Assembly (NCBI GenBank): GCA_023300105.1
Contig: JALZWM010000049.1
Span: 1 to 44,932, forward strand
Direction of reading: 5' to 3'
Source: Hellea sp.
GTDB lineage: Bacteria > Pseudomonadota > Alphaproteobacteria > Caulobacterales > Maricaulaceae
DNA: 44,932 nt
The notes below the pieces were generated by a model, which did no database searches, was not told the DNA's origin, and was given only the letters and a program-made list of their open reading frames with translations. Every line of letters begins with the position of its first letter. The first letter of the stretch is position 1. Position numbers and translations under genes: made by a program. Positions 41,232 to 44,932 of this stretch are shown here, in pieces.

Positions 41232-41663
41232 ATGAAACCTGATATTGTTACGGATGGAGAATTTAAAGGTTGGATGACGTGGAAGTCCGAAGCTTTTGAG
41301 CATGATACGGCTGGGCCTTTCCATTTTACGACTGATGATAAAGGCGTGGTCTGTGCGTTTCGCGTACTGCCCAAGCATATGAATCAAGGCGGTGTCGTCC
41401 AAGGTGGGTGCCTTATGACCTTCGCGGATTTTTCTTTGTTCGCGATTGCCAAAGATGCCTTTAAGGAGGGGGATTACGGATTAACGGTGGCATTCACCAG
41501 CGAGTTTTTATCAGGTGCTAAGCTTGGGAGCCTTGTTGAGGCCCGCGGTGACGTACTTAGAGAGGGCGGTTCTCTTATTTTTGTGCGCGGGCTTTTAACA
41601 GCCGATGGGGTGCCTTGTTTGAACTTTTCCGCAACTTTGAAGCGGATTAGGGCGCGGCCTTAG
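41232..41663 (+). CDS. PaaI-like hotdog thioesterase
   Basis: This 143-residue hotdog protein has the PaaI-type active-site stretch 'NQGGVVQGGCLMTFADFSL'. In most relatives the segment reads N-x-x-G-x-x-H-G-G; here His is Gln, so catalysis may differ, while the downstream Asp of FAD is kept. It would hydrolyse an acyl-CoA in the cytoplasm. It starts 59 bases after the GNAT gene with tandem repeats between, and no strong ribosome-binding site was seen. Confidence 0.82.
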   Translation: MKPDIVTDGEFKGWMTWKSEAFEHDTAGPFHFTTDDKGVVCAFRVLPKHMNQGGVVQGGCLMTFADFSLFAIAKDAFKEGDYGLTVAFTSEFLSGAKLGSLVEARGDVLREGGSLIFVRGLLTADGVPCLNFSATLKRIRARP

Positions 41664-41738
41664 AGGCTAGAGGCTTTACTTGGAAATCTATTGGACCTTT
41701 CGCTAGTGCTTTTTGGCTAAAAAGAGCCGTTTCTGCTG

Positions 41739-41767
41739 TTGCGACTCGTATATAGTCTGCTTATATA
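41739..41767 (+). promoter_or_regulatory. Putative sucC promoter with GANTC site
   Basis: TTGCGA at 41739-41744, a 17-base spacer, and TATATA at 41762-41767 form a sigma70-like promoter. TTGCGACTCG (41739-41748) contains the GANTC site GACTC overlapping the -35 and is identical to the element upstream of mdh. Confidence 0.45.
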
Positions 41768-41780
41768 TAAATATAAGTCC

Positions 41781-41805
41781 GAGGCTCCATTGTGGGGCCT
41801 CTTTT
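41781..41805 (+). terminator. Terminator-like hairpin in sucC leader
   Basis: GAGGCTCC (41781-41788) pairs with GGGGCCTC (41794-41801) with a 5-base loop, followed by TTTT. It lies between the probable promoter and the sucC start at 41833, so it may be an attenuator rather than only an end for the PaaI-like gene. Confidence 0.5.
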
Positions 41806-41832
41806 AGCGAATAACCAACGACGGGCCTTTTC

Positions 41833-43029
41833 ATGAATATACACGAATATCAGGGCAAAGCTGTCCTCAAAGAAATTGGCGCGCCAGTGTCAGAAGGAAT
41901 TGCCATTTTTAAGGCCTCCGAAGCTAAAGCTGCTGCCGAGAAATTAGGCGGCCCATTATGGGTTGTTAAATCTCAAATCCATGCTGGCGGCCGTGGTAAA
42001 GGTAAATTCATCGGCGCAGCCGAAGATGCTAAAGGGGGCGTGCGCCTTGCGTTCTCTATCGACGATGTTGTCAAGAACGCTGAAGAAATGCTCGGTGAGT
42101 ATTTGGTGACTGAGCAGACTGACGATAAAGGCAAGCAAGTTAACCGTCTTTATATCGAGCATGGGTCTGACATTGACCGTGAACTTTACATTTCGATTAT
42201 TATCAACCGTGAAACATCGCGCGTCTCATTCATCGTCTCGACTGAGGGCGGCATGGATATCGAAGCTGTTGCGCATGATACGCCTGAAAAAGTTATCAAC
42301 TTTGACATCGACCCTGCGACAGGCTTCATGCCGCATCACGGACGTAAGCTTGCTAAAGCGCTAGAGCTTAAAGGTGATCTTGCGAAACAAGCGAATAAGC
42401 TTGGCCGTGTACTTTATAATGGCTTCTTGGCCAAAGACATGGCGATGCTTGAAATTAATCCGCTTATCGTGACTGAAGACCAAAACCTTCATTGTTTGGA
42501 CGCGAAAATCAGCTTTGATGAAAACGCGCTTTTCCGTCACAAAGATATCCAAGAGCTTCGTGATATCACTGAAGAAGATTCAAAAGAAACAGAAGCTAAG
42601 AAATATGACCTCTCTTATGTCGCCCTCGACGGCAACATTGGTTGTATGGTCAACGGCGCGGGTCTTGCGATGTCCACTATGGATATCATCAAGCTCTACG
42701 GCGCTGAGCCTGCGAACTTCCTTGATGTGGGCGGCGGCGCGACGAAAGAAAACATCGTTGCGGCCTTTAAAATCCTCACATCTGACGAAAAAGTCAAAGG
42801 CATCCTTATCAACATTTTTGGCGGCATCATGAAATGTGATGTCATCGCACAGGGCACTGTTGACGCGGTTAAAGAAGTTGGCCTTGAAGTGCCGCTTGTT
42901 GTTCGCCTAGAAGGCACGAACGTTGAAGCCGGTAAAAAAATCATCAACGAATCTGGTCTAAACGTAATTGCTGCGGATGACCTAGACGATGCTGCGCAGA
43001 AGATTGTTGCAGCGGTGGAGGCTGCGTAA
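41833..43029 (+). CDS. sucC: Succinyl-CoA synthetase (ADP-forming) beta subunit
   Basis: This 398-residue subunit has an N-terminal ATP-grasp domain ('[19 protein letters not shown]' near residue 53) and a C-terminal CoA-ligase flavodoxin-like domain ('[19 protein letters not shown]' near residue 326). With SucD it interconverts succinyl-CoA and succinate with ATP formation in the TCA cycle. Its TAA overlaps the SucD ATG by one base. The leader holds a GANTC-bearing promoter and a terminator-like hairpin. The ribosome-binding site is weak (GACGGG). Confidence 0.97.
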
Positions 43030-43916
43030 TGTCAGTACTAATTAACAAAGACACAAAAATTATCACACAGGGCATGACCGGTAAAACCGGCACGTTCCAT
43101 ACGGAACAAGCTATGGCTTATCACGGCACCAAGATGGTGGCTGGCGTTACGCCCGGTAAAGGCGGAACAACACATATTGGTCTTCCAAACTATGACACTG
43201 TGGCCGAAGCGAAACACGCAACAGGCGCAACAGCCTCTGTGATTTACGTACCCCCGCCATTCGCAGCGGATTCAATCATGGAAGCGATTGACGCTGAAAT
43301 GGAACTTATCATTGCGATTACCGAAGGCATTCCTGTTTCAGACATGATCCCCGTTAAGCGCGCGCTTCAAGGTTCTAAATCTCGTCTTATCGGGCCAAAC
43401 TGTCCGGGCGTCTTGACCCCAGAAGAATGTAAAATCGGCATCATGCCCGGTAAGATATTCAAAAAAGGCTCTTGCGGCGTTGTCTCTCGTTCAGGGACTT
43501 TGACATATGAAGCCGTGTTCCAAACCACGCAAGTTGGCCTTGGCCAAACAACAGCGATTGGTATTGGTGGTGACCCGATTAATGGCACTAACTTTATCGA
43601 TTGTCTTGAACTCTTCATGCATGATGATGACACTAAACAAATCATCATGATTGGCGAAATCGGCGGTTCAGCCGAAGAAGAAGCCGCTGAATATGTTGCG
43701 CATATGGCGAAAAAAGGTATTAAAAAACCAATGGTTGGCTTTATTGCTGGCCGTACAGCCCCTCCAGGGCGCACAATGGGCCATGCTGGCGCGATTGTAT
43801 CTGGCGGCAAAGGCGGAGCTGAAGACAAAATGGCGGCTATGGAAAAAGCGGGTATCCGTGTTTCTGATAGCCCTGCGAAATTGGGCGTGACAATGATGGA
43901 AGTTCTGAACTCTTAG
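43029..43916 (+). CDS. sucD: Succinyl-CoA synthetase alpha subunit
   Basis: This 295-residue subunit has a CoA-binding Rossmann domain ('[18 protein letters not shown]' near residue 15) and the phosphohistidine loop '[18 protein letters not shown]' with His252. It forms the phosphohistidine intermediate with SucC. Start and SucC stop overlap by one base, so translation is coupled. The next gene is normally sucA; here an unrelated ORF lies between, beginning 17 bases after the stop. Confidence 0.97.
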
Positions 43917-43933
43917 AGTTCAGGATTCTGCGC

Positions 43934-44551
43934 TTGTCGGAGGATTTAACTTTATGGGATGTCTTTGCACGAGTGCAAAGAATTCTTACTATGGGCTACC
44001 AAAGTAGTAATTTTGATTTTGGCAGTCCTATTGAACTCTCAGAGGAAAAGGCTCATGAATTAGCCAAAAGGGCGTGGGGATATTATAGAAATAACATTCC
44101 TTTAGAGATGCATCTTTCTAATGTTAGGGCAGATAGTAAAAGAGATGAGATGATTGAGAACTTTAAACAATCGTATTTAACTTGCCCCTGTTTTTGGATA
44201 GATTCCATGTATGTGTTTTACCAGAGAGCCAAACACGAGTATGGTTACTTCACAAAAGTAGAAGTCTTTGCACCTAAAAATCACTACAAAAGTTGGCTCA
44301 ATTTTATGCTAAGTAAGGAATTAGAGAGTACAGTGAGCTCCGATGTGAAGAACCGGACAAAATTTTTTATTTCGAAAGGGTCTGACCGTGATATGGATGA
44401 GACAGATGGTATGGGGAGTGTATCCGTTGGCGGTGTGTCACGCCATCATGGCAGAGATGGCGGCGGATTTAGTTTTAATGGGAGTGTATCTCTGTTAGAT
44501 GCTAAACTTTGTATATATTTCAAAGCAACAAATTACATGCAATTATTATGA
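43934..44551 (+). CDS. Unknown ORF inserted between sucD and sucA
   Basis: I do not recognise this 205-residue protein. It has no clear signal peptide or membrane helix, is rich in aromatic and charged residues in the first 125 residues, has a Cys pair 'TCPCFW' near residue 83, and a Gly/Ser-rich C-terminal part ('SVSVGGVSRHH' and 'GGGFSFNGSVSLL'). Codons are more AT-rich than in sucD and sucA. The frame opens at TTG 43934 with AGGA about 8 bases upstream; a strong GGAGG at 43939-43943 instead points to an out-of-frame ATG at 43954 with only 17 codons. Its TGA overlaps the sucA ATG (ATGA). An internal start such as the ATG at 43991 is possible. Confidence 0.6.
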   Translation: MSEDLTLWDVFARVQRILTMGYQSSNFDFGSPIELSEEKAHELAKRAWGYYRNNIPLEMHLSNVRADSKRDEMIENFKQSYLTCPCFWIDSMYVFYQRAKHEYGYFTKVEVFAPKNHYKSWLNFMLSKELESTVSSDVKNRTKFFISKGSDRDMDETDGMGSVSVGGVSRHHGRDGGGFSFNGSVSLLDAKLCIYFKATNYMQLL

Positions 44552-44932
44552 CAAAAAAATCACGATCTGAGCAAAACCAAGCCATGCTCGACACCTTGTT
44601 TCTGGACGGGGCGAATGCGACCTATATTGAGCAAATTCAGGCTCAATACGCCGCGAACCCTAATAGCGTTGACCCGAGTTGGCGCACCTATTTCGCCAGT
44701 GTCGGCGAAGAGGCGGCGAATGCTAAGAAAAACGCCGATGGGCCGTCATGGAAGCGCGCCTCTTGGCCAATTGACGCTCAGGACGAGCTTACTTCTGCCT
44801 TAACGGGAAATTGGGGGCCTGCTGAGCAAGAAGCGGTCAAAAGCAAAGTTGCAGCTCATGTTGCCACAGCAACAGGCGCCGCATCTGCTGAGGATATTCA
44901 GCAAGCGACGAAAGATAGCTTGCGCGCGCTTA
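44548..44932 (+). CDS. sucA: 2-oxoglutarate dehydrogenase E1 (partial, 5' end)
   Basis: The frame runs off the window end and gives the first 128 residues of 2-oxoglutarate dehydrogenase E1. 'DTLFLDGANATYIEQIQAQY' and 'SVDPSWRTYFASVG' are the conserved N-terminal segment that binds the E2 subunit; the thiamine-diphosphate domains lie beyond the window. E1 decarboxylates 2-oxoglutarate to feed succinyl-CoA to SucCD. The ATG overlaps the stop of the unknown ORF and lacks its own ribosome-binding site, so its translation may depend on that ORF. Confidence 0.93.
   Translation, partial: MTKKSRSEQNQAMLDTLFLDGANATYIEQIQAQYAANPNSVDPSWRTYFASVGEEAANAKKNADGPSWKRASWPIDAQDELTSALTGNWGPAEQEAVKSKVAAHVATATGAASAEDIQQATKDSLRAL

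Follow-up and report, generated by a model that had tools for sequence, protein, structure and literature searches.

An AT-rich gene between sucD and sucA of a Hellea genome ends on the sucA start codon and may be coupled to its translation

In this work we ask what an AT-rich gene is doing inside the suc operon of a Hellea genome (Maricaulaceae), where it separates sucD from sucA, and how sucA might be translated behind it. The window, that is the whole stretch of DNA analysed, is an entire contig of 44,932 bases from a 2.43-Mb draft genome in 167 contigs. On its forward strand, sucC (succinyl-CoA ligase beta subunit, 41833-43029), named by its position beside sucD and by a reading of its sequence, has a TAA stop that overlaps the ATG of sucD (TAATG). 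The sucD gene (alpha subunit, 43029-43916, forward strand) carries the Pfam domains CoA_binding and Ligase_CoA and is 93-97% identical to its counterparts in eight matched genomes of the same genus. The 5' part of sucA (44548-44932, forward strand) was recognised through Pfam PF16078 (2-oxogl_dehyd_N, E 5.8e-17) and comprises the first 385 nt of the gene, the rest being found on contig C145 of the same genome. Inside sucA, the end of the window (44834-44932) and the end of C145 share exactly 99 nt, an overlap that resembles a branch point of the assembly graph and perhaps reflects strain variation in this gene.

The open reading frame between these genes occupies positions 43934-44551 of the forward strand, running from a TTG start through 205 codons to a TGA stop. 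The original prediction described it as compositionally different from its surroundings, and this description holds, since both its GC content (38.2%, compared with 41.4-54.0% for the others) and its codon-usage index are the lowest among 43 non-overlapping ORFs of the window. An open run of this length was found in none of 20,000 Markov-1 random sequences of 631 nt, built with the dinucleotides of the ORF and read in three forward frames, the longest being 169 codons. Codon phase lends modest support to coding, with the lead of the frame over the best other frame matched by 161 of 2000 stop-free random sequences and its lead over the mean of the other frames by 23 of 2000. The sequence does not decide between a start at TTG 43934 and the in-frame alternatives GTG 43973 and ATG 43991 (186 codons from the latter), for which Shine-Dalgarno (SD) duplex energies are -4.1, -4.3 and -2.2 kcal/mol, respectively, and the TTG start draws no support from N-terminal similarity to the related proteins considered below. 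The protein is predicted to be soluble and to have no membrane segment (top 19-residue hydropathy 0.92), and AlphaFold2, run with single-sequence input, modelled it with a mean pLDDT of 36.

Two elements at the 5' side of the frame may bear on its expression. A 19-nt palindrome (9+1+9, 43905-43923, not assigned to a strand), read from the sequence, extends across the stop codon of sucD and, when folded, can cover part of the AGGA (43922-43925) that precedes the TTG; the fold of 43890-43945 is weakly stable relative to shuffles (z -1.77; 9 of 200 equally or more stable). This palindrome could link translation of the ORF to that of sucD. Within the 5' part of the ORF, a hairpin on the forward strand (TCTTTGCA-CGAG-TGCAAAGA, 43962-43981) has a perfect 8-bp stem and a CGAG loop, is terminator-like by score (five such sites in 41500-44932 versus 3.2 expected) and folds with a z of -2.31 (6 of 200 shuffles); if active, it would lower transcription into sucA. 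The left arm of this hairpin, together with a neighbouring base (TCTTTGCAC), occurs again at 44265-44273. Inside the ORF we found no sigma-70-like promoter, and an Rfam search returned a single chance-level match (SNORD18, 21.4 bits compared with a gathering score of 41).

Key to the relationship with sucA is the junction at its 3' end, where, as the original prediction had it, the TGA of the ORF overlaps the sucA ATG as ATGA (44548-44551, forward strand). Two genes on the same strand with a stop/start overlap of 1 or 4 nt form the arrangement by which translationally coupled overlapping pairs are identified, and the ORF and sucA have it. It had further been claimed that sucA lacks its own ribosome-binding site, and the duplex energies agree: the sucA ATG at 44548 scores +2.2 kcal/mol, i.e. 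no usable SD, compared with a median of -4.9 (weakest +2.1) for sucA in 25 relatives and -2.0 kcal/mol for random window positions. These 25 are the loci whose sucA match starts at residue 1, and one of them (L062) starts on GTC and is therefore a doubtful start; the energies were computed with the anti-SD sequence as commonly known. An SD within the upstream gene, which is usual in coupled pairs and not essential to them, is likewise absent before sucA, and the AT-rich region around the start is unstructured (-4.7 kcal/mol, z +0.74). PMC6728339 reports strict coupling for 13 of the 14 overlapping gene pairs tested there, with an SD contribution that ranged from essential to none; removal of the SD substantially cut reinitiation in four of five E. 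coli pairs, and on the strength of those pairs coupling that lacks any SD might be weak.

To place this arrangement in its evolutionary setting, the sucD-sucA junction was compared across relatives. The two genes had been predicted to be normally adjacent, which is correct for the genus, where nine other genomes have gaps of 26-69 nt, and does not extend to the family, where 22 of the 113 other measured pairs carry an insert. Among 120 sucD-sucA pairs on one contig and strand, 114 lie within 5 kb and were measured, with one genome (G066) counted twice; six pairs with sucA and sucD in the other order were set aside, as were two genomes in which the genes are far apart on opposite strands. Gap sizes split sharply into 91 of at most 292 nt and 23, the window included, of 631-2105 nt, the window insert being the smallest; individual values may be off by approximately 3 bases because the matches may miss the last sucD residue.

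ORFs were annotated for 20 of the 22 other inserts, with L155 and L156 standing apart from these, and 20 ORFs from 16 of the 20 inserts (L138, L151, L152 and L153 being left out) were searched against Pfam; some long ORFs of the GC-rich inserts may be false frames. Nine of the 20 ORFs matched, revealing a diverse cargo that includes Fic (L148), the SocA-like antitoxin domain SocA_Panacea (L144), BLUF (L147), GAF (L137), L-PSP (L134, L149), a glyoxalase together with an ArsR-type HTH (L146), and DUF4396 (L145). These genes have their place of insertion in common with the window ORF but are different proteins, some of them on the opposite strand, and among the ORFs listed from the 20 inserts only that of genome G076 has a stop overlapping sucA. 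The sucD-sucA junction is a frequently used insertion place in this family, with cargo that is mostly unrelated. Over L134-L153 its behaviour is that of a hotspot for insertion within a core operon. The inserts of L152 and L153 (genus g14), L155 and L156 reach approximately 2 kb, and L152 and L153 contain an opposite-strand gene of approximately 400 aa as well as a second ORF on that strand, which on visual comparison is similar to the BLUF protein of L147. A further locus, L154 (G077:C113), has a second sucD of its genome, followed by what we read as a TonB-receptor-like gene rather than sucA; the bin concerned is listed as 8% contaminated.

Two genomes from another genus of the same family, G075 and G076, proved most informative. 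In both, a same-strand gene (239 and 249 aa, respectively) starts 6-7 nt past the sucD stop and lies before sucA. The two proteins are homologous, with 26% identity and a score reached by none of 500 shuffles (z 8.3), and they are far more diverged than their neighbours, given that the two sucD genes are 79% identical at the DNA level. Furthermore, seven other measured genomes of that genus have short gaps of 14-39 nt, from which it follows that the gene comes and goes. In G076 the gene has a GC content of 38.2% between flanks at 57.5%, its TGA overlaps the sucA ATG (TGATG), and the sucA SD is weak (-0.7 kcal/mol); in G075 the stop lies approximately 129 nt before sucA by hand count, again with a weak SD (-0.4 kcal/mol). 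Neither protein has a credible match in Pfam, NCBIfam, PHROGs or PADLOC, in the PDB (searched with a three-sequence profile), or among phages, plasmids and viral contigs.

The window ORF agrees with these two genes in size (205 aa compared with 239 and 249 aa), strand and junction, and one set of comparisons at the protein level points in the same direction. Its summed end-to-end score against the pair exceeds those of all 616 equal-length controls in all six settings, and is reached by 0-11 of 1000 full shuffles and by 5-33 of 1000 shuffles confined to 20-aa stretches. In other local and semi-global settings it is outscored by 0, 0, 0, 1, 7 and 10 of 778 controls, a set that excludes the three proteins themselves, and it comes second among 779 sequences when these are ranked by an HMM of the pair (E 1.6). 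Residues 71-205 carry the signal; residues 20-70 show no clear similarity, and the first 19 residues show none. Taken singly the comparisons are not significant, the score being reached by 95 (local) and 65 (semi-global) of 500 shuffles against the G076 protein and by 19 and 100 of 500 against that of G075; nor is hhalign of the pair profile with the window ORF (probability 0.2%, P 0.33), and a profile search with the pair across 137 family genomes did not report the window genome (G000). The junction common to all three raises the odds of membership, and we consider the window ORF to be probably, on these alignments, a remote relative of the G075 and G076 genes.

Beyond these two genomes, searches for the window protein gave little. 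No credible match was found in Pfam, NCBIfam, PHROGs, PADLOC or the PDB, where three designed proteins appeared at E 0.7-1.2, nor in viral contigs, IMG/VR, plasmids, phages or GTDB contigs, and with no hit in PADLOC, Pfam, PHROGs or NCBIfam the protein matches no known toxin-antitoxin or defence family there. The profile methods and structure prediction proposed with the original prediction yielded no domain match and the low-scoring model described above. The nine other genomes of the genus, some of which are incomplete drafts, gave no match, and at E 0.01 none was credible in 137 family, 398 order, 385 class and 398 phylum genomes, the last three sets being samples; among the 137 family genomes the only single-sequence match was in the window genome itself. 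In 60 relatives searched at E up to 1, weak matches occurred in eight other genomes at E 0.11 or worse. Three matches within E 0.001-0.007 were rejected as chance-like, two (L131, L132) having a stop codon inside the match and one (L133) lying antisense to ATP-synthase genes by our reading of the locus. The gene had been called unrecognised, which stands as far as databases are concerned; given the G075 and G076 genes, it is probably not a lone orphan.

How, then, did the ORF come to lie on the sucA start? According to one alternative, which we regard as unlikely, a recent and single insertion of approximately 594 bp landed exactly at the start of sucA. On this view sucA would originally have been translated from the ATG at 43954, with a GGAGG at 43939-43943 as its ribosome-binding site, and the TTATG present at either end (43952-43956 and 44546-44550) would be a target-site duplication. 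The GGAGG is present on the forward strand as originally described and precedes an out-of-frame ATG of only 17 codons, where its duplex energy of -9.5 kcal/mol is past the 1% level of random positions; the resulting 37-nt leader fits the gap sizes of relatives, the 17 nt before ATG 43954 are leader-like to a degree reached by 48 of 923 window ATGs, and among 83 end positions tested TTATG is the longest suffix in common with the sucA start. However, the GGAGG belongs to the codons of the ORF itself (TCG-GAG-GAT, within Ser-Glu-Asp), and 43917-44060 gave no alignment with the sucA leaders and starts of relatives above shuffles (126 of 200 reach it). When the same leader test is applied to other ATGs preceded by an SD, 9 of 67 reach the resemblance of ATG 43954 at 17 nt and 23 of 67 at 30 nt, and the leader before ATG 43991 is more like those of relatives than the one before ATG 43954. 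Since no alignment exceeds shuffles and the similarity is like that of other SD-preceded ATGs, the idea that the GGAGG is the stranded original SD of sucA finds no support in these comparisons. Among the hallmarks of mobile insertions (terminal inverted repeats, a transposase or integrase, a target duplication), the locus offers only the 5-nt TTATG repeat, which is weak evidence as its ATG is forced; the ends lack inverted repeats, and the insert contains no further gene that reaches 60 codons. The probably homologous genes that begin 6-7 nt after sucD in G075 and G076 also count against a single event.

Similarly improbable in our estimation is that the ORF is a little-translated passenger or a decaying gene, with initiation on sucA needing no SD in a leader that is rich in AT and unstructured. 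The weak folding around the sucA start and the modest codon-phase signal would accord with this, as would the sucA of L082 (Pelagibacteraceae), which also starts without an SD (+2.1 kcal/mol); yet a frame of 205 codons that ends exactly on the sucA ATG, longer than any run in the random sequences, and the like overlap in G076 count against it. A regulatory role of the protein for 2-oxoglutarate dehydrogenase or the suc operon is very unlikely. Position and inferred co-expression are the only points in favour, whereas the nine other genomes of the genus, all with a near-full-length sucA, have no match, the window genome holds the sole match among 137 family genomes, unrelated Fic, SocA-like, BLUF, GAF and L-PSP genes occupy the same junction elsewhere in the family, and the protein has no domain match; the suggestion that it encodes a modulator of the 2-oxoglutarate dehydrogenase complex consequently finds no support. 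There is an even slimmer chance that the layout is an assembly artefact or a chimeric contig. A 167-contig draft whose contig breaks off 385 nt into sucA, with an exact 99-nt overlap like an assembly-graph break, invites this suspicion, but both junctions of the ORF lie within the contig, neither a second copy of the ORF nor another sucA start was found in the bin, and G076 has a like layout.

The explanation that we prefer, and to which as a whole we give about even chances, is that the ORF encodes a protein of a rapidly evolving family with a patchy distribution, found between sucD and sucA in a few members of this bacterial family. Its probable and strongly diverged counterparts in that position in two related bacteria suggest a passenger gene that changes quickly, and not a singular case. 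The frame, its overlap with sucA, the missing SD, the adjacency of sucD and sucA in relatives and the mutual homology of the G075 and G076 genes are plain from the sequences; from these we infer one transcription unit, reinitiation at sucA, and the kinship of the window ORF with the other two. The ORF would be transcribed together with sucCD and sucA. With the SD of sucA lost, ribosomes reaching the TGA within ATGA would terminate there and begin again at the sucA start codon that it overlaps (termination-reinitiation), in which case sucA output would follow translation of the ORF. The original proposal that the ORF may set the rate of sucA translation is thereby upheld at the same strength, with ATGA and the absent SD in the window and TGATG in G076 pointing to coupling. 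The protein itself would be a soluble cargo with no part in the citric acid cycle.

These findings indicate repeated invasion of a junction inside a core operon, seen in 23 of the 114 pairs measured for one family. They also indicate that a protein family with no known relatives probably recurs there and can take over the start of sucA. We also entertain, as a distinctly doubtful extension, that such a cargo gene family holds a core enzyme hostage, an 'addiction by translational coupling'. If so, a gene that replaces the sucA ribosome-binding site and ends on the sucA start codon would make any nonsense mutation, frameshift or deletion of its own a loss of 2-oxoglutarate dehydrogenase, and would therefore stay intact whatever its own use; the overlaps ATGA in the window and TGATG in G076 would on this view represent two distinct cases, one in each of two genera. 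The locus thus lends itself to two concrete questions, namely by what means operons accommodate foreign genes, and whether a gene with no evident use is shielded from decay by being coupled to a core gene.

Orphan or lineage-restricted AT-rich genes are a known kind in bacterial genomes, as are overlapping coupled genes; the novelty appears to lie in the family itself, in its location and in the way it seems to have captured the sucA start, and in the open-licence literature we found no report of a gene between sucD and sucA. Like orphan AT-rich genes, the window ORF has a low GC content and no credible match; unlike them, it overlaps a core gene and probably has diverged relatives, which lie at this very junction in two genomes from a different genus. 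In comparison with the coupled co-directed pairs (ATGA/TGATG) treated in PMC6728339, the ORF and sucA lie on the same strand with a 4-nt stop/start overlap. As in coupled overlapping pairs, the downstream gene shows no sign of an independent initiation signal. The pair differs from them in having no SD before the reinitiation codon, and in that its upstream gene is lineage-restricted and stands in front of a gene for a core enzyme.
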